Shown here: positions 1,176 through 27,716 of the stretch, piece by piece
Numbering within the stretch: position 1 is the stretch's first letter
How the letters are laid out: each line of letters begins with the position of its first letter
Source: Phycisphaerae bacterium
Lineage (GTDB): Bacteria; Planctomycetota; Phycisphaerae; UBA1845
DNA length: 44,704 nt
Direction of reading: 5' to 3'
NCBI GenBank assembly: GCA_030429365.1
Contig: JAUIEW010000007.1
Span: 1 to 44,704, forward strand
Made by a program: the position numbers and the translations under genes
The notes under the pieces: model-generated
Told to the model about the DNA's origin: nothing
The model's input: only the letters and a program-made list of their open reading frames with translations
Databases searched by the model: none

Positions 1176-2456
1176 TTGTGTTCCTCCTAATGTGATTAGA
1201 CATCTGTCTCCCACACGCGATGCACGGGGAGCGTCATAAACTCCAAACCACTAGAAAACGATTTGAAAAACGTACTTTCTTACTTGCAGTCATTGCGAGA
1301 AGAACGTCCGGTCTGATTGAGGCTTGAGGCTCCTTTTCCTTCCCGCTTCTTTCTGACCAGGCAACGTCGTTCGACGCAAACGACGTTGATCGCCTGTGTG
1401 ATTCGATTGCCGGCAGCTCTCGCAGACTGCCAAGGATGGGTAATTCACCTCGCAACGAATCGTTATGACATTGCGCTTCGAGTTGCTGGCGACGATCTTC
1501 AGAGGCTTCCTGAAGTTTGCTCAGCCCTTGCGGCTTTGATCCCTCCGAAATATCAAAACCGCGCTCGAACCTAGATATGCAACGCACCCGGCATTGCGGC
1601 AACCACACCCGCCGCTGCAAGGACTGCCAATTCACTCCCGACATCCGACGTACAGGACGTGCCATCATGTGACAGCACCCGTCATTCGCGGACGCCGAGA
1701 ATCAATCTGCGGATCCCCGGACTGCGCACACACCCCTTTTTCACGCGTAATTGCAGGCTGCATTGTAACCTGTCACACTTTCGTAAATCAACCCTGATAA
1801 CAGCTACATTTCCGTTACAAATTCGCGCATATGAATCAAATAAGACGTGTTCTGCCTCCTCTACTTGTCGGAGTAAAGGGCAGGGTACTTGGTGTTTCTA
1901 GGGGTAGAACGCCTAGTTTTTACTGCGCAGACAGTTACCGGACCTTGGCCTTCGCCACCGACGATTGAATCCAAGTGAATCCGGAGTTTCGGGCTATCTT
2001 GGCCCGGTTGGCTGAACTGATCGAATCGCCGAAACGGCAAACTCCGGAGCCGTGAATGGGACAGTTTCAAGGTTGCGGGAGTCATCCAATCATCGACTGG
2101 TCAACGTTCCTGCCCGATTCGGCAGTCCTGGAGCGGGTCCCATATGGTTGACGACCTCTTGGGGCGTCCTTATAAATGCGAGCGGCTACCCGCTGTTCGC
2201 GATGCGTCCGCTTATTTCGACCTTGGAAACAAAGGTAACCCGCTCTCTAAGGGCTGTTATCGACTGAGGTTGCCGCGAATCGCCGAACGCCGGTTGGCCG
2301 CCTGAATCTCGGCTTGGAACTGCCGCTGAGCGTGCAGCACATGGCGAGAAAATCTGGGCAGAGAGACCTGAACGAAGAGGCATTGAATACGGCAAGTCCT
2401 GGGCCCGAAGATGTCCAGTTTGCCGCCCTCCATAATACCAAACCGGAGTTTCGCCG
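1176..2456. other. Long intergenic region without a convincing gene
   Basis: About 1.28 kb separate the divergent exported-protein gene and the FG-GAP lipoprotein gene. Short open frames exist on both strands (for example 1234-1668 minus and 2186-2665 minus), but they lack ribosome sites, signal peptides or recognisable motifs. A weak hairpin, CTAGG/CCTAG at 1898-1916 followed by five T, is the only terminator-like signal seen. The last bases before 2457 carry GGAG at 2445-2448, the ribosome site of the next gene. Both flanking promoters must lie here, but no clear -35/-10 pair could be chosen. Confidence 0.5.
1187..1199. promoter_or_regulatory. 13-bp palindrome next to a ribosome binding site
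   Basis: CTAAT-GTG-ATTAG is a perfect 5-bp inverted repeat overlapping the 5' side of the AGGAGG site of the minus-strand exported protein. It could be an operator or a small hairpin affecting ribosome access. Such a short repeat may also be chance. Confidence 0.25.
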
Positions 2457-4328
2457 ATGAGATCGAAGGGGACCGTGCCAGGATCGCGGATCGGATTCAG
2501 ACAGTTCCGACGACTGGGTACATCTGTATTAACTATATTAATGGCAATAGGTTGCGCCGGATGCCCAGTGCCCGACAATGGCGGCTCTGATGGGGATGGC
2601 GACCTATCCGCATCGATCGCGTTTTTCAGCAACATTCGCCTCTCTGGCGAACAGAACGTCACCATCGTCTACAGCACGACTGGTTCCCCCACCGCAATCT
2701 CGGCCTACTACGTCCCGGTTGCGAGCACTGCGATCGATGCGCAAGCGACTGGCGCAGAAGTCATTTTTGCGAACAATCTCAGCGCGGGCGCCAATCAAAC
2801 AACGTCCCTCAATACGCTCAACATTCCGGTCGGTTTGTATCGAGTCGGTTTGAATCTGACCGACACTTCTGAGTCGATCAAAGTGTTGAGCCAGGGCACA
2901 TTCGAGATCACGGAGTTGCCGACGCCGCAGTTTGAGTTGCCTGATCGCGACCTGCAAATCGTGGCCGGAACACCCGTGGACATCCGCATTGATGTGGGCG
3001 ATGACGAGAACGCTGTCCAGTGGCGACTTTTCTACGTCGAAGCAAGCGTTTCGACCGAAGGTCTGCCAGCCAACCAGATCGGCGACCCGATCGCAACTGG
3101 TGCGGCAAGCCAGATCATCACGATCTGGAACACAACGGGGTTGAGCAACGGCACCTACCGAATCGGTATTTCGGTGACAGATACGGGCCAATCAATCGAC
3201 TCGGCAGTCAACAACAATGAGACGATTCCCGCACCGACGTTCAACGATTTCTCGGTGACCATTGTCGACGAAATCCCGCAGCGGACGCCACCAACTGTTG
3301 TCGTCAGTCAGCCGTCAACCGACATCGAGATCCTCGGTTCGGAAACCACTCTGATCCAATTCGAAGTAACGCGTTTTGAAGACGCGACAGAGTTTGAAAC
3401 TGTCATTCCGTTCTACGACGTTGATGATATCCCCACGAACGGTAACGAAGTGACTATCGGCCAGCCCTTTGATCCATTTCCGATTGAAACTACGAACGTC
3501 GTCTTTGCCGGAAACCTGATCGGCTTGGGAGAAACGGTCTACATCGGTGTCACCGCCGACGACGGCGTGAGTGATCCTGTGACAGCGTACGCCTCGGGAA
3601 CCATTACGCGCCTCGATCCCGACGCAGCTCGACTCACGGTGACCCAGCCGACCAACGCGTTGGCTCAGAAGCCAGGCACCGAAATCAATGTCGCTTGGCA
3701 GATCGATAATCTGCCAACAACAGCCAACGCTGTTGTCGATATTTTTGTCCGGCGAATCGGCTCAGACGGTAATCCAGTCAACTCGACGCTCGTGGACAGC
3801 GATAAGATCAACGCCAATCCTATTCCGCTTACGCAAACGTCGACGAGCTTTACCGCGCAACTCCCAGGGAAGTTCCGCATCACCGCACGACTCACCTTTA
3901 CCGACAACTCAGCCGACGACCTTGTGGACGATGCGCCGGTCGATATTCAGATTTCAACGCTGCCAACGATCTTCTGGCTGGGATCGCTTTTGGATTCAAC
4001 GCCGCAGGTTAAAGGCGCGATTTTCGAAGGCGTGCAGTTTGAAGACAATGCTGGATCTGCGTTTGAAGGTGGCGAGGATTTCGACGGCGGTGGTCTCGAT
4101 GAAACCTTCATCGTCAGCCGCTACGCCAAGCCAGAATTCCAAAATCCCAGCGGTGTGGGCCCCGGTGAAGCCTACATGCTTCGCGGCAACTCGATTCGCT
4201 ACGCTGGCCGATACAACCTGAACTCCGTTGCAAACACCGGGGTCCCAGGATTTGTATTCAGCGGTGTCGAGCCGAATCCAGATCTCGCGCCGACCGATAC
4301 GGACGGCCAGCATCTTCATTTCCGGTGA
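2457..4328 (+). CDS. FG-GAP/Ig-like repeat lipoprotein, N-terminal part (frame broken)
   Basis: This ORF starts at ATG 2457, 8 bases after GGAG. Its N-terminus has a basic segment, a hydrophobic stretch and an AIGCAGC lipobox-like end near residue 36, so a surface lipoprotein is likely. It is followed by an acidic Gly/Asp linker and then several ~100-residue beta-rich segments that resemble Ig-like or cadherin-like repeats. From about residue 525 integrin-like FG-GAP sequence begins (DNAGSAFEGGEDFDGGG, DETFIVSRYAKPEF). The frame ends at 4328 just after DTDG in the middle of an FG-GAP calcium loop. The natural continuation (SIFISGDADADEVGEVVFG) is in the next frame, so this is the front two-fifths of a longer protein of about 1,450 residues. 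Confidence 0.8.
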   Translation: MRSKGTVPGSRIGFRQFRRLGTSVLTILMAIGCAGCPVPDNGGSDGDGDLSASIAFFSNIRLSGEQNVTIVYSTTGSPTAISAYYVPVASTAIDAQATGAEVIFANNLSAGANQTTSLNTLNIPVGLYRVGLNLTDTSESIKVLSQGTFEITELPTPQFELPDRDLQIVAGTPVDIRIDVGDDENAVQWRLFYVEASVSTEGLPANQIGDPIATGAASQIITIWNTTGLSNGTYRIGISVTDTGQSIDSAVNNNETIPAPTFNDFSVTIVDEIPQRTPPTVVVSQPSTDIEILGSETTLIQFEVTRFEDATEFETVIPFYDVDDIPTNGNEVTIGQPFDPFPIETTNVVFAGNLIGLGETVYIGVTADDGVSDPVTAYASGTITRLDPDAARLTVTQPTNALAQKPGTEINVAWQIDNLPTTANAVVDIFVRRIGSDGNPVNSTLVDSDKINANPIPLTQTSTSFTAQLPGKFRITARLTFTDNSADDLVDDAPVDIQISTLPTIFWLGSLLDSTPQVKGAIFEGVQFEDNAGSAFEGGEDFDGGGLDETFIVSRYAKPEFQNPSGVGPGEAYMLRGNSIRYAGRYNLNSVANTGVPGFVFSGVEPNPDLAPTDTDGQHLHFR

Positions 4329-6810
4329 CGCAGATGCCGACGAGGTCGGCGAAGTGGTCTTTGGATTCCCCCGTGCGTTCTCGCAACGACTCCGCGTGCT
4401 GGACGGCCCGCGAATGATCGACTCAAACGGCAGTCTCGAAAATGCCTGCGCTCTCGGGACAAACTACCCGCAGTTCACGCGCGGCGGCATCGTGATTGTC
4501 AGCAGCCGCAACACCGAACTGCAATCGAGAAGCAACGACGAGGCGAACCGCCGGTGCAAACTCGATTGGGTCGGCCAACTGTTCGACACGCAATTCGGTG
4601 CACTTTCGGCAACTGAAGGTGCCGTCTCTCCGGAACCAAACGAAGGCCAACTTTGTCAGGGATCCAGTTGGATGGAAGATCGCCTTACTTTCGTCGACAG
4701 TGAAGGTAACTGCCCACCAGATGGCCCGCCGAACTTCATCGGGTGTGCGAGTACTTTGCAGTTTGACCCAGATGACGAACAGGAAACCCTGGTCGAGCCA
4801 ACATTTGGTTTCGACCCGCGTCTGGCCGACCACTATCTCTGCAACTTCCCGATCCCTTGTTTCCCAGGCGATCCTCGTGGAAGCCTGCAGGAAGATTGCC
4901 CTGGCGTTGATTTCTCGGATACCGATTGCGACTTGTTCCAGGAACTGAGTTTTGACTTGAACCTCTGTTCGCAAACCACTCCGATTGAAGAAGCCGTCCC
5001 GCCAGGTGGTGATCCACTGGCCGATCCAACCTGCGAAGCGGGCAAAGACTTGGCACGGCAACTGCTGATTCCCTTGAATCATGCCTGGGTGGAGCCAACC
5101 ATTGGATTTCTAAGCAGCGGTTACTACCGCGAGCGAATCAGTGGGTCGGGTGCACCGGAAGCAGAAACAGACTGGAACGATATATCACGTGACAACCATG
5201 CCCCCGCCACATCTGCTGGGCGGGTTGATTCGCTCATCGGTTGCCGGGTCATCGGTGAGACCGTCAATGAGGGTTATGGAACGTCCATAACCCAGAGTGA
5301 CGACAACCTTCTGGTAACCTCGCCGCTGCGACAATCGATCAGTATCGACGGGACAACGAGGGAGCAGGGCGGAATTGCATACTCGATTGAAGACTATCAG
5401 CCGCTCGCCAATCGCGCACGGCTTTGGCAGTTCCCCGAAGACATTGGATTTGACCCCCGAGACTATGGATTCATCGGTACGCCGCCCCAGCCACACCAAT
5501 ACCTGGCCGACGGGAATAGCCACGGCGGGATCCGCCCAGGACAGGCGGCGCTCAACGGGGCACATCAGGATACCACCAATTCCTTGGATATATTCGGTGA
5601 CAGCGGCGAGCAGATCAGCAACGTCTTGGGTATCCCCGACTTCAACACGGATGGTCGTGTGGACATTTTGATCGGCGCGCCCCTGGGCGATGTCGATGCC
5701 GATGGCACCGCAGACGGTGCGGCGTATATCGTGTTCCGCCGTGCGGAGACTCTCGAAAACAATTTCGACCTCGCCGACTTGAAACGCAATGTGAATGACC
5801 CCGAGCGTCTTTCGGGTGTGCTTCTTCGGGAGGCGTTGGGCAGTGAACAGCGTTTCGGTGAATCGATTACAGGCGGCATTCCCGGATCGGTGCCGGCAGA
5901 CTTCGACTTCAATCATGATGGCGTTGGTGACGTCGTTATTGGTAATCCCGACGGCAACGGTGGAACCGGCGAGATCATCATCGTCTTTGGAAAGAGTGAC
6001 TTGATCAGCCCGGAAGGCGGCATTCCGATCGAGAGTGAGGGATCAACTCCAGGACTGCTCGAGCGTCGTGAAGGCGCCCGAATTCGAGGCGTCGAGATCG
6101 GAAGTGAGTTCGGCTTCAACGTTCGCAACATCGGCGACATTGACGGCGACGGATTCAGCGACCTCGCCATTGCAGCACCGAACGCTACTCCGAAGTTTGA
6201 TGGCAATCCGAATGACTCAGTTGATATTCTCGACACTCCCGGCTTGGATCGCGACTTGGATGGTGTCCGCGACGACGTCACCGGACGCAATGGTATTCCG
6301 GACGGGGTCATTGATGCCAATGACGAACTCGCCCACGCCGGATTGGTTTACATCATTCTCAGTTCAACCGATACGCGGAACTTCCCCGCCACGGTTGGCG
6401 GAATTCAGGACATCTCGATTTCGGCTTTGGGGACCGACGACCTGGACGGCCTCATCATCGTGGGACGTCGAGGCGACCGTTTCTCCAACAACGTACTCGT
6501 GCATGAAGGTGACTTCCTGGGTGGCGGAGATGCCGGCCAGGATCTACCTGTGATGGTTCACGGCGTCGAGATCAACTATGGCGGTAACCCCAGCAAAGCA
6601 CCGACCCAATTCATGGGTCTCAATGGCCAGATGGTTGAACGACACAGAGGTCGTGGCCAGGGAATTGGTCGATTGGGTGATATTGACGGTGACGGGCTGG
6701 ATGACTTTGCCCTGGGTGCCCAACTCGCCGACCCACGCGTGAATCCCGTGACCGGTGAAGGCACCAGGAACGGTGGCGAGGCTTATATCCTCTACGGATT
6801 TAACCCGTAA
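4228..6810 (+). CDS. FG-GAP repeat protein, C-terminal part of the preceding broken gene
   Basis: This frame carries the rest of the lipoprotein that begins at 2457. Its first ~27 codons (4228-4308) are an out-of-frame shadow of the upstream piece; real sequence begins near 4309 with SIFISGDADADEVGEVVFG. Later FG-GAP units contain Asp-rich calcium loops such as DFNTDGRVD, DFNHDGVGD, DIDGDGFSD and DIDGDGLDD, each followed by a hydrophobic strand (DLAIAAP, DFALGAQ). This is the arrangement of the integrin-alpha beta-propeller. A Cys-rich insert lies around 4640-5040. There is no ribosome site or signal peptide of its own, so it is unlikely to be an independent gene. A rho-independent terminator follows at 6843. 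Planctomycetes encode many such surface proteins; the ligand is unknown. Confidence 0.75.
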   Translation: MQTPGSQDLYSAVSSRIQISRRPIRTASIFISGDADADEVGEVVFGFPRAFSQRLRVLDGPRMIDSNGSLENACALGTNYPQFTRGGIVIVSSRNTELQSRSNDEANRRCKLDWVGQLFDTQFGALSATEGAVSPEPNEGQLCQGSSWMEDRLTFVDSEGNCPPDGPPNFIGCASTLQFDPDDEQETLVEPTFGFDPRLADHYLCNFPIPCFPGDPRGSLQEDCPGVDFSDTDCDLFQELSFDLNLCSQTTPIEEAVPPGGDPLADPTCEAGKDLARQLLIPLNHAWVEPTIGFLSSGYYRERISGSGAPEAETDWNDISRDNHAPATSAGRVDSLIGCRVIGETVNEGYGTSITQSDDNLLVTSPLRQSISIDGTTREQGGIAYSIEDYQPLANRARLWQFPEDIGFDPRDYGFIGTPPQPHQYLADGNSHGGIRPGQAALNGAHQDTTNSLDIFGDSGEQISNVLGIPDFNTDGRVDILIGAPLGDVDADGTADGAAYIVFRRAETLENNFDLADLKRNVNDPERLSGVLLREALGSEQRFGESITGGIPGSVPADFDFNHDGVGDVVIGNPDGNGGTGEIIIVFGKSDLISPEGGIPIESEGSTPGLLERREGARIRGVEIGSEFGFNVRNIGDIDGDGFSDLAIAAPNATPKFDGNPNDSVDILDTPGLDRDLDGVRDDVTGRNGIPDGVIDANDELAHAGLVYIILSSTDTRNFPATVGGIQDISISALGTDDLDGLIIVGRRGDRFSNNVLVHEGDFLGGGDAGQDLPVMVHGVEINYGGNPSKAPTQFMGLNGQMVERHRGRGQGIGRLGDIDGDGLDDFALGAQLADPRVNPVTGEGTRNGGEAYILYGFNP

Positions 6811-6842
6811 ACGCCAATAATGCCCAAATGTAAGATGGTTCA

Positions 6843-6878
6843 GGCAGCCGGTGGGTTCGTCCCAGCGGCTGCCTTTTT
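6843..6878 (+). terminator. Rho-independent terminator
   Basis: A perfect 8-bp stem, GGCAGCCG (6843-6850) with CGGCTGCC (6866-6873), is followed at once by TTTTT. It sits 32 bases after the stop of the FG-GAP gene and separates that unit from the secA unit. Confidence 0.85.
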
Positions 6879-6948
6879 CTTGGGCTATCGGTCCTGAGAT
6901 TTGGATTGCGTGCAGGAACCAGGGTTGGCCGGTATACTCCCCGTTCCA

Positions 6949-7305
6949 ATGATGCGGCAAAATGCAAAACCGAATCGCACATCCGCCCAACTGGGCTGCG
7001 GCCCCGGTCGATGGAACCGCGCCTGCGCGTCGACCACTGTGGTGGTTGCGATGTTGTGCGCTACGCCCGCTGCGACGGCCTTTGCCCAGTCACAAGGCGA
7101 CGAAACACAAGGTGCCGTGTTGACGCGGTTGGCGGCTGCCCCGAGCGCGCCGGCAGCCTGCACAGCCCCACTCGCATCAAACCCGCAGCGTGACGAAATG
7201 GCTCTCGCCCTATCGACCGTCCATGTCACGCGAACCACGCGACCGTCCATCAAGACGTCGCTCCTCGCCACGCGCACCCGTGTTGGCGGTTTGTATGGAC
7301 CCTAG
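6949..7305 (+). CDS. Small exported protein upstream of secA; candidate secretion-monitor leader
   Basis: A 118-residue ORF starts at ATG 6949 and stops at TAG 7303-7305, 121 bases before secA. It has a late signal-peptide-like region: basic residues (GRWNRAC), a hydrophobic TTVVVAMLCATPAATA core and a cleavage-like AFAQ. The mature part is Ala/Pro/Thr/Arg-rich without a recognisable fold, and it ends RVGGLYGP-stop. In gammaproteobacteria SecM occupies this position, is exported, and stalls ribosomes at a C-terminal GIRAGP to raise SecA synthesis. The place, size, signal peptide and Gly-Pro end match that idea, but there is no real sequence similarity beyond GP and no Shine-Dalgarno is evident. 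Codon use is like that of true genes. Alternatives are an unrelated exported protein or a chance ORF. Confidence 0.5.
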   Translation: MMRQNAKPNRTSAQLGCGPGRWNRACASTTVVVAMLCATPAATAFAQSQGDETQGAVLTRLAAAPSAPAACTAPLASNPQRDEMALALSTVHVTRTTRPSIKTSLLATRTRVGGLYGP

Positions 7306-7426
7306 GTGAATTCGACGCCTTGGCAACGAGCGCAGTTGGGCGCTCATGGTTCCATTCAAACTGTTTCCGGCTGGATTTGCGCCGGTCTGACCAAACACAA
7401 CGCTCACCGATAGAAGGAGTACGGCT
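7306..7426 (+). promoter_or_regulatory. secA leader with two hairpins
   Basis: Between the leader ORF and secA are two inverted repeats: GAGCGC (7328-7333) with GCGCTC (7340-7345), and CCGGC (7367-7371) with GCCGG (7381-7385). Neither has a U-run, so they are not ordinary terminators. The secA ribosome site AAGGAG (7414-7419) lies downstream. They could form alternative structures that expose the site when a ribosome stalls upstream; this is inference. Confidence 0.3.
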
Positions 7427-11356
<3,930 letters not shown>

Positions 11357-11378
11357 GAACATGACTTTCAATCGGCGC

Positions 11379-13915: not shown

Positions 13916-15616
13916 ATGTGCGCGATGAAGCAGAAAACCGAGTACAACAAGAAAGTCCTGAAGCAGTTCGTCCCGGTCATCTACACGGACGAGCACTTCA
14001 TTGCGGTGGCCAAACCGCCCCGCATCGATCTCGAGTCGACCGCGTGGCGTCATGGTCCGCGGTTTATCGAATTGATCGAAGAGTCGCTGGCCAGCAAACC
14101 CGGGCGATCACACGTCGATTCGGACGAACCGCTCGTCCCGCTCATTTTGCCCGAGCGATATGCCACCGGCGTGGCGCTGTTCGCCCGTTCGGAAGAAGCG
14201 CAGCGCCGTTTTGCAGGAATGGCCCGCACCGGAAAGCTCCGCTTTGCCCACGTCGCAGTCGCCAACGGCAAACCGCCGCGCGCCCGCATCGCATTGAAAC
14301 CCAATCGCGCAACCGTCAAGAAGAAGACGGCCAAACCGCTCCAGCAAGCGGCGAAGATCGAGATGCTGGACTCCACCAAGGACCGCCACGTCGCCCGTTG
14401 CAACACCGGTGCCGCCTCCTTCGAGCAGCTTCGCAAGGCGTTTCGGTTGGCGGGGCTTGCAATCGAAGGCGATGAGTTCATCTCGGCGAAGAAAGCCGCG
14501 AAGCCCAAGCAGTTGCAACCGCGGCCGCTCGTTCACCTGGAGCAGTTGACCTTCCCGCATCCGTTTGAAAAGAACCGCGAGCTGAACCTGCGGGCGGCGA
14601 TTCCGGGGGCGTTTCTCGAACTCGTGCGCAGCGGAAGCCATCGCAACGTGCACTTGAATTCGGCGCTTTCCATCCGCCTTTCCATCCTGCTCGACAAGGG
14701 GACGGATTGCCTGCGGTTGTTCTGCGGTAAGTTTGAAGGCATCAGCGGGCTCGTCGTCGATCGCTACAACGACGTCATCGTGCTGGAAGCGCAGCAGGGT
14801 AAGTTCCAGGGCGGCGATCAGGAACTCGGTGAAATCGCCGACTGGTACGCGACTCAGTTGAAAGCAAAAGCCGTCTACCAGATGTGGACCGCACGCGCGG
14901 GTGAGGGCGGCGTCGGCAAGGACCGCCCCGTCGAGTTGATCCGCGGTCAAGGCGTCGACGAAGTGACGGTGTCGTCGAAAGGGACGAAGTACATCGTCAA
15001 ACCGGGTCAGGGTTTGTCGAGCGGTTTGTTCCTCGATCACCGCGACAACCGCGCCTATGTCGCTCAGCTCGCACAGAACAAAACGCTGCTGAATCTATTC
15101 TGCTATACGTGCGGTTTCAGCGTCGCTGCGGCCCGCGAAGGCGCGAAGACGACCAACGTCGACCTATCGGTGGCGAGTCTCGAATGGGGCAAGCGCAATT
15201 TTGAAGCCAACGGCCTCAGCCTCGACGATCAGATGTTCATCAAGAGCGATGCCTTTGACTATTTCAAACGCGCGGCGCGTCAGGAGAAACTGTTCGACGT
15301 CATCGTGATCGATCCGCCAAGCTTCGCCCGCACGAAAAAACCCAAGCGCACGTTCGAGGTCAAAAAGAACATGGTGGATCTAATCGTCGGCGCGATGCCC
15401 CTTCTAAAACGCGGCGGGCATATGCTGCTGGCCACCAACCATCGACAGCTTCCGCTCGCCTGGCTGATGGAGCAGGTCGACGACGCGTGCGACCGATTCG
15501 CCTCGAAGAACAAGCGTACCCCGCGCGGGTTCCAGATCATTTCCAAACCGAAACTACCCGTCGATTTCGCACCGGACCGCGCGCTGCAAAAAACCATCGT
15601 CGTCCGCTTCGATTGA
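13916..15616 (+). CDS. RluA-like domain fused to RlmI-type rRNA cytosine methyltransferase
   Basis: The C-terminal half is a class I SAM-dependent methyltransferase of the RlmI/RlmK group, which makes 5-methylcytosine in 23S rRNA. Evidence includes FCGKFEGISGLVVDRY, GLFLDHRDNR near residue 370, LNLFCYTCGFSVAAA (SAM loop) and IDPPSFARTKK near 466. The first ~190 residues look like an RluA-family pseudouridine synthase: YTDEHFIAVAKPPRI, then PERYATGVALFARSEEAQRRF. The catalytic RLD of RluA enzymes is replaced here by LPE, so the key Asp is Glu80 and activity is doubtful. That half may act as an RNA-binding module. The domain order is clear from the sequence; the rRNA target is inferred. ATG 13916 is used; another in-frame ATG is at 13925. 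Confidence 0.85.
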   Translation: MCAMKQKTEYNKKVLKQFVPVIYTDEHFIAVAKPPRIDLESTAWRHGPRFIELIEESLASKPGRSHVDSDEPLVPLILPERYATGVALFARSEEAQRRFAGMARTGKLRFAHVAVANGKPPRARIALKPNRATVKKKTAKPLQQAAKIEMLDSTKDRHVARCNTGAASFEQLRKAFRLAGLAIEGDEFISAKKAAKPKQLQPRPLVHLEQLTFPHPFEKNRELNLRAAIPGAFLELVRSGSHRNVHLNSALSIRLSILLDKGTDCLRLFCGKFEGISGLVVDRYNDVIVLEAQQGKFQGGDQELGEIADWYATQLKAKAVYQMWTARAGEGGVGKDRPVELIRGQGVDEVTVSSKGTKYIVKPGQGLSSGLFLDHRDNRAYVAQLAQNKTLLNLFCYTCGFSVAAAREGAKTTNVDLSVASLEWGKRNFEANGLSLDDQMFIKSDAFDYFKRAARQEKLFDVIVIDPPSFARTKKPKRTFEVKKNMVDLIVGAMPLLKRGGHMLLATNHRQLPLAWLMEQVDDACDRFASKNKRTPRGFQIISKPKLPVDFAPDRALQKTIVVRFD

Positions 15617-15718
15617 CGCCCTGGTGGCGCCGGCTCGCATGCTCACATTGTGCCGATTAAGATGATCGCTCAGCTTGAAAGGGTTGAACCATTGTCTTAA
15701 GGCAGGGCCGGCAACATC

Positions 15719-17293
15719 GTGAATACCGACAAATCTGCATTGGATGATGTGGTCGTATTGGACGGCCGCGAAGTGGAAACGTTTCACGCGCTCTGTGCAT
15801 CGCGGTGGCGCGCATGGATCGACAGCGCCATTGAAGCCAAAACCAGCGGCAAGGGTATCCTCGCTCGGCCGGAAGTTGACGTTGGTTTAATCGAGCTCTG
15901 CCTGCATCTCGACACCGTCGATCCCGATGGCGACTGGAAACGGAATGCTTACATCACGCTGATCTGGACAATCGACGACGCCCTGCGGGCTGGCGGAGAT
16001 TGGACGTGGGCGCAATACGATTCTCTTCTCCCATACGTGGAGGATCCGCTGCGTGAACTCGTCAGCATGGGCGAGCGGCCCATCCCTGAAAATGCAAAGA
16101 ACGCCAAGAAACATCCGCTGCTTCGGGCGCTGGTCAACACCGGCACGAAGATCACCGGCGAGTGGGCCGCCCACAAACTCGCCCGCCAGGAGGGCATCGA
16201 TCGCGACTTGATCTGCCGCGTCGATCAACAACCGATCATTGATGCATTTGAGGGGCATCGTCCGGAAGTCGTTCGTGCGGCGATGCTGCGTGTCGCGACG
16301 GCCAACCGCTTGACTTACGAACTCGGGGGCAGCACGAAGAATTGGAAGAGCCCTGAGATCGAACCGCTGCCCGACGACTTTCCCAAACCGCTTTGGCGCA
16401 ATCTCAACGTTCCCCAAATACCGCTCAAGTCGCGGGCGGCGCGGTGGGAGGTCGGCTGGGAAGTCCACCTCCGGTCGCGCGATGTATTCAGCGCAGCCAG
16501 CACGGTCAACGTCTATACCTATGCCCTCGGGGCATCTGCAGAACAAGCGCAGTTCGACCCTAAGAACAGCGCGACCGATTACACAGACACGTCGCAGATG
16601 TTCAACCGATGGTTGCGTTGGCCCCGGGCAATGGAAGAGTTCGCCTCGCTCGAATTGTTCTTCGATGAATCGCCAACACGGTACCTCGCGTCGAATCTGG
16701 CCCACGCGCGGATTCGCTGTCAGTTCAACCAGTGGGACGAGCATTTCTACGCATTCGACGCGCTCACAGTGGCTGACAAGGAACTTCGAAGCGAATGGGT
16801 GAGACAGTATCTCGCGATGCCAATCGATTTTCGCAGCGCCTTTTTCGATCCTGTATTGCAACTGCTATCCGGCGAACCGCTCGACAAAGAACGCAAAGTG
16901 CCAAAATCCGACGCCCGGTTCTATCACGAATCGTTCGCCGTTCAGAAGGCGATTCATCAAGACAATGTGACTGCATTCAATGAGCATCTACCGGCGATGA
17001 TGGCCGCCTATCGGCGTTTGGGAAACCGGCAATTCACCAAAGAACTCTGCCTTGCTGCGATCGCACTCCAGCGCGAGGCGTTGCGACGTGGCATGAAGAT
17101 CGACATCCCACAGGATTGGCCCAACCATCCGCCAACTGTCGAAGCCCCCGACCCGGTTGAACCCGATACGCACTGGAGTCCGTGGGCGGGCGTGCAGTTG
17201 TTGGTCGACAACCCAACCGAGCCACTCGCTTGGCCGACCATGCTGCTCAACCGCAGAGTGCGCCGCGTGGTCAAGTCCGAAGCAGCCATCTAG
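15719..17293 (+). CDS. Conserved-looking protein of unknown function, 524 residues
   Basis: This is a cytoplasmic-looking protein without signal peptide or membrane segments, rich in Trp, Arg and Asp. It is not recognised with confidence. The N-terminal ~130 residues are helical in pattern, the centre has several W/R-rich stretches, and the C-terminal segment (LGNRQFTKELCLAAIALQRE, ALRRGMKID) recalls the end of Imm49-type immunity proteins, but only weakly. The start is GTG 15719 with only a poor GGCAGGG site. The stop codon overlaps that of the convergent acetyltransferase within a CTAG at 17290-17293. No toxin gene lies beside it, which weakens an immunity role. Confidence 0.8.
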   Translation: MNTDKSALDDVVVLDGREVETFHALCASRWRAWIDSAIEAKTSGKGILARPEVDVGLIELCLHLDTVDPDGDWKRNAYITLIWTIDDALRAGGDWTWAQYDSLLPYVEDPLRELVSMGERPIPENAKNAKKHPLLRALVNTGTKITGEWAAHKLARQEGIDRDLICRVDQQPIIDAFEGHRPEVVRAAMLRVATANRLTYELGGSTKNWKSPEIEPLPDDFPKPLWRNLNVPQIPLKSRAARWEVGWEVHLRSRDVFSAASTVNVYTYALGASAEQAQFDPKNSATDYTDTSQMFNRWLRWPRAMEEFASLELFFDESPTRYLASNLAHARIRCQFNQWDEHFYAFDALTVADKELRSEWVRQYLAMPIDFRSAFFDPVLQLLSGEPLDKERKVPKSDARFYHESFAVQKAIHQDNVTAFNEHLPAMMAAYRRLGNRQFTKELCLAAIALQREALRRGMKIDIPQDWPNHPPTVEAPDPVEPDTHWSPWAGVQLLVDNPTEPLAWPTMLLNRRVRRVVKSEAAI

Positions 17294-17757
17294 GCGCTTG
17301 GCCAAACGATTTCGTAAAGATGATATCCCGCGTCAACCATCCCCAGCGATTGATACGTCGCCAGCGCCGGTTCGTTTTCGCGTTCGACGTATAACCGCAA
17401 ACCGCACACACCCGCTGTGTTGCTCGCTTCGCCGCGCAGGTGTTCGTAAAGCCGTCGATAGACGCCCTTGCGCCGAAAGTCCTTGACCACGTACACGCTT
17501 TGAATCCACCAGAACCAGCCGTCGCGCCAATCGCTCCACTCCTGCGTCACCATCAACTGCCCCACCACGCGCCCGTCACACTCCGCGACGAGGTAACGCC
17601 CGCGCAACGGATCGTCGAGCGCCCGCTGCACACCACGCGTGAGCACGGCTTCATCAAGCTGCTTGCCCTCTGACTCGATGGCCATCATGCTGTTGCCTTC
17701 GACGATCGCGCGTAGATCGGACGCAGTAGCGCTGCGGACAATGATTGACGATTTCAC
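17290..17757 (-). CDS. GNAT family N-acetyltransferase
   Basis: The 155-residue protein has the GNAT layout: IIVRSATASDLRAIV at the start, YLVAECDGRVVGQLMV (beta4), IQSVYVVKDFRRKGVYRRLYEHL with the acetyl-CoA-binding R-R-K-G-V-Y loop, and LRLYVERENEPALATYQSLGM near the end. GTG 17757 is chosen because AAAGGA ends 5 bases before it and because it fits the family N-terminus; the longer frame to 17919 has no such support. The acceptor is unknown. The gene converges on the 524-residue gene with a 4-base overlap of the two ends. Confidence 0.88.
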   Translation of the reverse strand: MKSSIIVRSATASDLRAIVEGNSMMAIESEGKQLDEAVLTRGVQRALDDPLRGRYLVAECDGRVVGQLMVTQEWSDWRDGWFWWIQSVYVVKDFRRKGVYRRLYEHLRGEASNTAGVCGLRLYVERENEPALATYQSLGMVDAGYHLYEIVWPSA

Positions 17758-25589: not shown

Positions 25590-27716
25590 ATGTCCCACGA
25601 GAACCCCGTCCAGGACCAATGGCTCACCGAGCTAAACGAGCAGCAGCGACAAGCCGTCACGCATGGTGATGGGCCGCTGCTGGTCATCGCGGGCGCAGGC
25701 ACCGGAAAGACCAAGACGCTCGCCTGCCGGGTGGCGCACCTGATCGCCAACGGAACGCCGGCAGAGCGCATCTTGCTGCTGACATTCACGCGACGGGCGG
25801 CTGCAGAGATGATTGGGCGAGCACGACACATCACCAACCGCCCGGACGCGGCATCGGTCTGGGGCGGAACTTTCCATGCGATGGCCAACCGCATCCTGCG
25901 GATATATCACTCGGCTGTCGGGCTGCCCGATGATTTCACGATCATGGATCAATCGGACGGAGCCGACCTGATGAACGTCTTGCGGACGGACATGGGCCTG
26001 GGCAAAGGCGACCGCCGCTTCCCGCGGAAGGAAACGCTCGTCAAGATTTACTCGCGAACCATCGCCGCACAGGAAGGCCTGCGCGACGTGGTCAAGCGGT
26101 TTTATCCGTGGTGCGCCGACGACACCGATGGCATTGCGGAGTTGTTCGAGGCGTTTGTCGACCGCAAGCGGAAGCATGGCCTGCTCGACTACGACGATCT
26201 GCTGCTGTTTTGGAACGTGCTCTGTGACGTATCGCCGGCTGCTGATACGGTTGCAGGCCGATTCGATCACGTGCTGGTCGATGAATACCAGGACACGAAC
26301 GCGCTACAAAGTGCCATATTGCGACACTTGCGCAGGCAGAACAAGAATTTGTGCGTCGTCGGCGATGACGCCCAGTCGATCTATTCGTTCCGCGCGGCGA
26401 CCGTTCGCAACATCCTCGACTTCCCCGAGCAATATGAAAACACAAGAGTCGTCAAGCTCGAACAGAACTACCGATCGCGCAAACCGATCCTGAAAGCATC
26501 CAACGCGGTGATGGCCGAAGCGCGCGAACGCTACACGAAGGAATTATGGTCCAACCTCGAAGGCGAACAGAAACCGCTGCTGATCCACTGCGTTGACGAG
26601 CAAGGCCAGTGCAACGAAGTGTGTAGCCGCATCCTCAAACACCTTGAAGAAGGCATCCCGCTGATGAAGCAAGCCGTCCTGTTTCGCACGGGGCACCACA
26701 GCGACATGCTCGAAGTCGAGTTGGCCAAGCGCAACATCCCGTTTCACAAGTTCGGCGGATTGAAGTTCATCGAGTCGTCGCACATCAAAGACGTGTTGGC
26801 GCTGCTTCGCGTGCTGGAGAACCCGCGCGACGAGATCAGTTGGTTTCGGATTCTGCTGATGCTCAACGGAATCGGGTCGGCGACCGCGCGCCGCATTGTC
26901 GATGCGCTTCTGGTCGATACTGAAGACTCGGAGCAAGCAACCGACGACGAAAATGCGGAAGGAACCCGCTTCAATCTCGCCCTCAAACGGTTGGCAGAGG
27001 CTCCGCCGCAGGTGCCGGCTGGCGCTCGCGAAACGTTCGACAAACTTCGCGATTTACTGCTGACCTGCAGCGGTCTTGGCGGTTCAGAAAGCGATGAGGC
27101 GTCGGCAGACACCCCCCCGATTTCGCAGCAAATCGAGCTGATTCGCGAGTTTTACGAGCCTTTGTTGGAGCGACGTTTCGACAACGCCGCAATGCGGACG
27201 CGCGACCTCGAGCAACTCGAACACATCGCCACCGGTTACCGATCGCGGCGCAGCTTCATCAGCGACCTGACGCTCGACCCGCCAGTCTCGACGTCCGACC
27301 TGGCCGGTCCGCCGTTTCTTGAGGAAGACTATCTGATCCTCAGCACGATCCATTCGGCGAAGGGCTGCGAGTGGGATGCCGTTCATATTTTGCACTGTGC
27401 GGACGGGATGATTCCATCGGACATGGCCGTCGGTGATGACGAGGGCATCGAAGAGGAGCGCCGGCTTCTTTACGTGGCGATGACGCGAGCGAAGGATCAC
27501 CTGTACACGTACTTCCCGCTGCGTTATTACCACCGCCCCAACAGTTCAAGCGACGCCCATTCGTACGCGCAGCTGTCGCGTTTCATTTCGAAGGATGTTC
27601 TGCCGACGTTCGAGCAGCACACGATCGAAACGCCGCAAGTGCGCGATGACCCTGCCGCCATCAAGGCATCGGTCGAAAGCGTGGACAACTACCTCAAGAC
27701 GCTCTGGCGCAATTGA
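25590..27716 (+). CDS. UvrD/PcrA-type superfamily 1 DNA helicase
   Basis: This 708-residue ATP-dependent 3'-5' helicase has all SF1A motifs: Q-motif LNEQQRQAV, Walker A GAGTGKT near residue 35, LTFTRRAAAEM (Ia), LVDEYQDTN (II), VGDDAQSIYSFR (III), LEQNYRS (IV), IHSAKGCEWDAVHI (V), and EERRLLYVAMTRAKDHLY (VI). The family unwinds DNA in repair and replication restart. ATG 25590 is chosen over TTG 25581 as it fits the family start. It is close to UvrD/PcrA/Rep in length, without RecB-type nuclease. A CADGMIPSD replaces the usual EEGLFPH segment. The queA and glycosylase neighbours suggest a small nucleic-acid maintenance operon. Confidence 0.94.
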   Translation: MSHENPVQDQWLTELNEQQRQAVTHGDGPLLVIAGAGTGKTKTLACRVAHLIANGTPAERILLLTFTRRAAAEMIGRARHITNRPDAASVWGGTFHAMANRILRIYHSAVGLPDDFTIMDQSDGADLMNVLRTDMGLGKGDRRFPRKETLVKIYSRTIAAQEGLRDVVKRFYPWCADDTDGIAELFEAFVDRKRKHGLLDYDDLLLFWNVLCDVSPAADTVAGRFDHVLVDEYQDTNALQSAILRHLRRQNKNLCVVGDDAQSIYSFRAATVRNILDFPEQYENTRVVKLEQNYRSRKPILKASNAVMAEARERYTKELWSNLEGEQKPLLIHCVDEQGQCNEVCSRILKHLEEGIPLMKQAVLFRTGHHSDMLEVELAKRNIPFHKFGGLKFIESSHIKDVLALLRVLENPRDEISWFRILLMLNGIGSATARRIVDALLVDTEDSEQATDDENAEGTRFNLALKRLAEAPPQVPAGARETFDKLRDLLLTCSGLGGSESDEASADTPPISQQIELIREFYEPLLERRFDNAAMRTRDLEQLEHIATGYRSRRSFISDLTLDPPVSTSDLAGPPFLEEDYLILSTIHSAKGCEWDAVHILHCADGMIPSDMAVGDDEGIEEERRLLYVAMTRAKDHLYTYFPLRYYHRPNSSSDAHSYAQLSRFISKDVLPTFEQHTIETPQVRDDPAAIKASVESVDNYLKTLWRN

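Follow-up and report, generated by a model that had tools for sequence, protein, structure and literature searches.

A probable five-base deletion interrupts an FG-GAP propeller gene upstream of secA in a Phycisphaerae genome

A gene of about 1,450 codons for a putative surface lipoprotein is broken in the Phycisphaerae genome studied here. The break is probably a recent, chance deletion of five bases in the DNA, which would have turned the gene into a loss-of-function allele. The window, i.e., the whole 44,704-nt stretch that was analysed, corresponds to contig C452 in a draft genome (455 contigs, 5.23 Mb) that holds one copy of this gene. The features of the broken gene are as follows:

2457-4328, + strand: frame A, 623 codons, with a signal/lipobox-like start, N-terminal domains and the start of the FG-GAP propeller
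4303-4311, + strand: frame-break site, five bases short relative to every homologue examined
4306-6810, + strand: frame B, the remaining 834 codons, open to the TAA at 6808-6810
4020-5840 (about 4000-5840), + strand: mosaic middle block, grouping with genome G003, the part upstream of it grouping with G001, G002 and G004
5876-5900 (approximate), + strand: about eight extra codons, in frame, in a conserved RFGESI-G-DFDFN stretch; absent from four congeners

Frame A starts at the ATG at 2457 and runs through DTDG-QHLHFR into the TGA at 4326-4328, the same ending that was given in the initial annotation. The open +1 frame after the break carries on past DTDG, as proposed there, reading ..SIFISGDADADEVGEVVFG to the stop at 6808-6810, and the GGCC tetranucleotide is indeed located at 4305-4308.

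The Two Frames Are One Gene in Relatives

The gene was sought in 60 related genomes, the source genome included, at a threshold of E<=1e-10. Frame A was matched in 49 of them and frame B in 46. Four congeners have a single open frame across both halves, of 1453, 1481, 1522 and 1522 codons. The junction was examined in 29 other genomes matching frame A, which include the four congeners, and all 29 homologous loci read through it in one frame. As a single open frame spans both halves in the homologues, frames A and B were once one gene, in line with the earlier proposal of a gene split in two. A scan of contigs with frame B alone found no relative, whereas an alignment-based query did.

Intact Phycisphaerae homologues (e.g., UBA1845 DDIR01000118, OFTM112 JAJDEB010000023 and M_MetaBat.71 JAADIU010000086) represent the same gene in the same place as in the window, and in G002, G003 and G004 it also lies just upstream of secA. 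They differ from the window in their uninterrupted frame of 1453-1522 codons. One further record, JANQQE010000024.1 (L072, isolate IP29b_bin.190), carries this planctomycete region in the same place as G004. Its title, Alphaproteobacteria, is probably a mislabel.

Nature of the Lesion

The four congeners read D-G-[I/M]-A-S-[I/V]-F at the junction, and in the alignment with them the window is without five consecutive bases. The spacing between the glycine of DG and the next D-x-D is exactly eight residues (24 nt) in 29 of 29 loci, versus 19 nt in the window. The initial annotation had described a single-base break, caused by one extra C. Its frame arithmetic is correct, since the net change is +1 and removing one C rejoins the frames, but a single-base insertion is ruled out by the congener alignment, in which the window is five bases short at one place relative to all four, and by the invariant anchor spacing. 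An extra C would leave two residues still missing, and these would need a separate two-codon loss; the one-event reading is thus a five-base deletion. The comparison with relatives that had been suggested as a check finds the gene whole in the congeners, and the lesion in the window to be of five bases and not of one. Judged from the alignments, the lesion is a single five-base deletion that appears private to this genome. A contig chimera was ruled out, as collinearity with G002 and G004 holds along the whole contig.

An Integrin-Like Propeller in a Putative Lipoprotein

The FG-GAP repeats named in the initial annotation were recovered in the downstream part (Pfam FG-GAP, 1.7e-16). Frame B, which contains most of the propeller, scores 60.1 bits with PF01839 against a cut-off of 22.1, and five intact homologues score 54.8-79.4 bits, again above the curated cut-off. 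No NCBIfam model matched the FG-GAP protein. Its N-terminus has a hydrophobic stretch followed by a cysteine (GCAGC) that is kept in most aligned N-termini, which is consistent with a putative lipoprotein.

The fold was predicted for the C-terminal 958 residues of an intact congener, from an alignment of 24 sequences. The model (pTM 0.74, mean pLDDT 65) consists of well-modelled strands around a long, low-confidence insert at residues ~209-435. Foldseek returned 112 PDB matches at E<=0.001, and every one of the 50 listed is an integrin alpha chain. The best of them is 4wk2_A (E 3.4e-12); the predicted model thus matches an integrin-alpha-like propeller, with low TM-scores of about 0.15-0.47. 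The likeness to the integrin alpha-chain beta-propeller lies in the FG-GAP repeats and the predicted fold, while this protein differs in being bacterial and in having N-terminal domains and the long insert. The junction falls near residue 115 of the 958-residue model. On this model, the break is inside the predicted propeller, and frame A would keep the N-terminal domains and the first propeller strands.

Age of the Break

Changes private to the window in frame B number 43, 37 and 59 at codon positions 1, 2 and 3, and those private to the intact copy of G003 number 41, 25 and 47. Positions 1+2 versus 3 do not differ between the two (Fisher p=0.90), and relaxed selection on frame B was not seen in this comparison with the intact G003 allele. 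The absence of any excess of unconstrained change suggests that the break is young, and these counts argue that frame B was under coding-type evolution for almost the whole of its separate history. Third positions are near saturation, with differences of 0.5-0.67 in most pairs, so that the age of the event is bounded only loosely.

Mutation, Artefact and Other Explanations

The proposed mechanism is a single five-base deletion, private and recent, that puts the last 834 codons out of frame. It would have occurred in the DNA of the cell, and not merely in the consensus, as a small deletion arising by chance, with one or two shared bases at most. The exported product would be truncated and lack a complete propeller, making this a loss-of-function allele of a gene for an accessory surface protein. 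Intact orthologues together with a private inactivating lesion are what a recent pseudogene or null allele presents. The case resembles the frameshifted pseudogene alleles of accessory surface proteins, with one recent lesion and the rest still coding-like, and differs from them in nothing beyond the usual.

The initial annotation had offered a sequencing error, a fresh mutation or phase variation, of which the first two stand as the leading readings. An artefact, by which the gene of the cell is intact and five bases were lost in metagenome assembly, has a real but clearly smaller chance of being correct than the deletion. The genome is a 455-contig draft, and frame B is fully constrained. 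The secA gene is frame-broken in the congener MAG G003 (L065 ~16630) and in pieces with repeated joins in the congener MAG G001 (L250 200-1450), something that a living cell could hardly survive. These breaks are most likely assembly faults and, as secA is essential, indicate that such drafts do contain false small lesions. Frame breaks elsewhere in the genome were sought by scanning 623,606 bases (60 fetched stretches plus the window) against 949 open frames taken from congener sequence totalling 1.35 Mb. The comparable portion, at 60% identity or more, amounts to 115,478 bases in 15 stretches and contains one true frame break, that of the FG-GAP gene. A candidate frame change at 25591 proved to be the tail of an upstream gene beside the start of the next one, and short antisense or weak candidates at 11367, 19152, 38412 and 41139 did not recur in a stricter scan. 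This rarity argues against an artefact and favours a true, recent loss of function. Moreover, a five-base loss outside homopolymers and repeats is not a usual short-read error. On balance, we favour a true mutation over a consensus error.

The remaining explanations are all far less probable. Translation of frame B as a separate working gene, from GTG 4354 or ATG 4414, is very improbable: a purine-rich GAGG does lie a few bases 5' of GTG 4354, but no signal sequence is visible from either start, so that an exported propeller is hardly possible, and no homologue is split at the junction. Slightly less credit still is given to slippage at the junction that would turn the gene ON and OFF reversibly. 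Surface proteins are usual targets of phase variation, but a slippage-prone repeat is lacking at this site: no tandem repeats were found in 2000-7400 at a score of 30 or more, the congeners do not carry the missing five bases as a repeat, and 29 of 29 homologues are in frame here. A slippage switch is thus unlikely, and the doubt about slippage already voiced in the initial annotation was well founded. An equally slim chance is left for a programmed +1 frameshift or other recoding that joins frames A and B, e.g., at UGA-C. In its favour are the net change of +1 and the C that follows the UGA of frame A, a weak stop context known from prfB. However, the codon preceding the stop is CGG, versus the CUU of prfB, and the junction arose through a lineage-private deletion. 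The conservation of a prfB-type shift site is not seen, all 29 loci being in one frame; as no homologue shifts frame at the junction, a programmed shift is unlikely.

Recurrent Stops and a Mosaic Middle Block

Internal stops occur in two of the 30 named loci, besides the window and G026. The stop of G026 is an in-frame TGA beyond the junction (L036 3823). An in-frame TAA is present before the junction in G013/OFTM303 (L082 5646), L082 and G013 sharing the same stop, and an in-frame TGA in bin11 (L090 6591, L090 being the bin11 chromosome). Stops at the match ends of L084, L091 and L097 were dismissed, as they lie at normal gene ends. The single in-frame stops in three other copies hint at recurrent loss, and from these sequences the family appears to tolerate loss of the FG-GAP gene.

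In the tree of 2640-3990, the window groups with G001, G002 and G004 (SH-aLRT 99). In the tree of the middle block, where the window is represented by its frame-B part only, from 4306 on, it groups with G003 (SH-aLRT 99), and the order for 5843-6807 has weak support (81-85). The window-G003 distance at codon positions 1+2 is alike inside and outside the block (0.179 versus 0.163), which makes the ancestor of G001, G002 and G004 the better place for the swap. The frame break lies some 200-300 bases inside the edge of the block, and G003, with the same block, is intact. A recombination breakpoint was rejected as the cause of the break, given its position inside the block and the placement of the swap in that ancestor. 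It is conceivable, although doubtful, that this is a diversifying surface propeller, its middle block exchanged between lineages and its gene repeatedly switched off by single lesions (the five-base deletion and the in-frame stops of G013, G026 and bin11), under pressure from phages, predators or neighbours that recognise the propeller.

The Surroundings and the Significance of the Break

About 1.7 kb at 15615-17294, with a 524-codon ORF (15719-17293), has no Pfam match and, at the nucleotide level, no counterpart in the collinear regions of G002, G003 and G004.

Between the FG-GAP gene and secA, a small ORF (6952-7305, + strand) has a signal-like N-terminus and ends in ..RTRVGGLYGP-stop, its stop located 121 nt before the secA start at 7427. 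An upstream ORF ending in GG[LI][YHT]GP-stop was found at 18 of the 30 secA loci examined, the window's own included (the others being L221-L224, L228, L231, L232, L235, L237-L239 and L241-L246). The window and three of the four congeners share the same last ten residues of this ORF; in the fourth congener it is cut by a contig end. RNA folding of the gap between this ORF and secA revealed nothing beyond chance (z -0.13). From its sequence features, it looks like a candidate SecM-type translation-arrest monitor. In the main text of Fujiwara et al. 2024 (PMC10987492), upstream ORFs of the proline-stop kind are reported only in Bacteroidota, an LPPP class is given for Planctomycetota in other orders, and neither UBA1845 nor GGLYGP is mentioned.

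By itself, the breakage of a single copy of an accessory surface gene has little significance. It is useful as a warning, since an apparent "one extra C" became a five-base deletion once relatives were aligned. Of more interest than the broken gene are its surroundings, with the conserved GGLYGP-stop ORF in front of secA. If this ORF stalls ribosomes, it would represent a type of secretion monitor that the main text of PMC10987492 does not describe for Planctomycetota.
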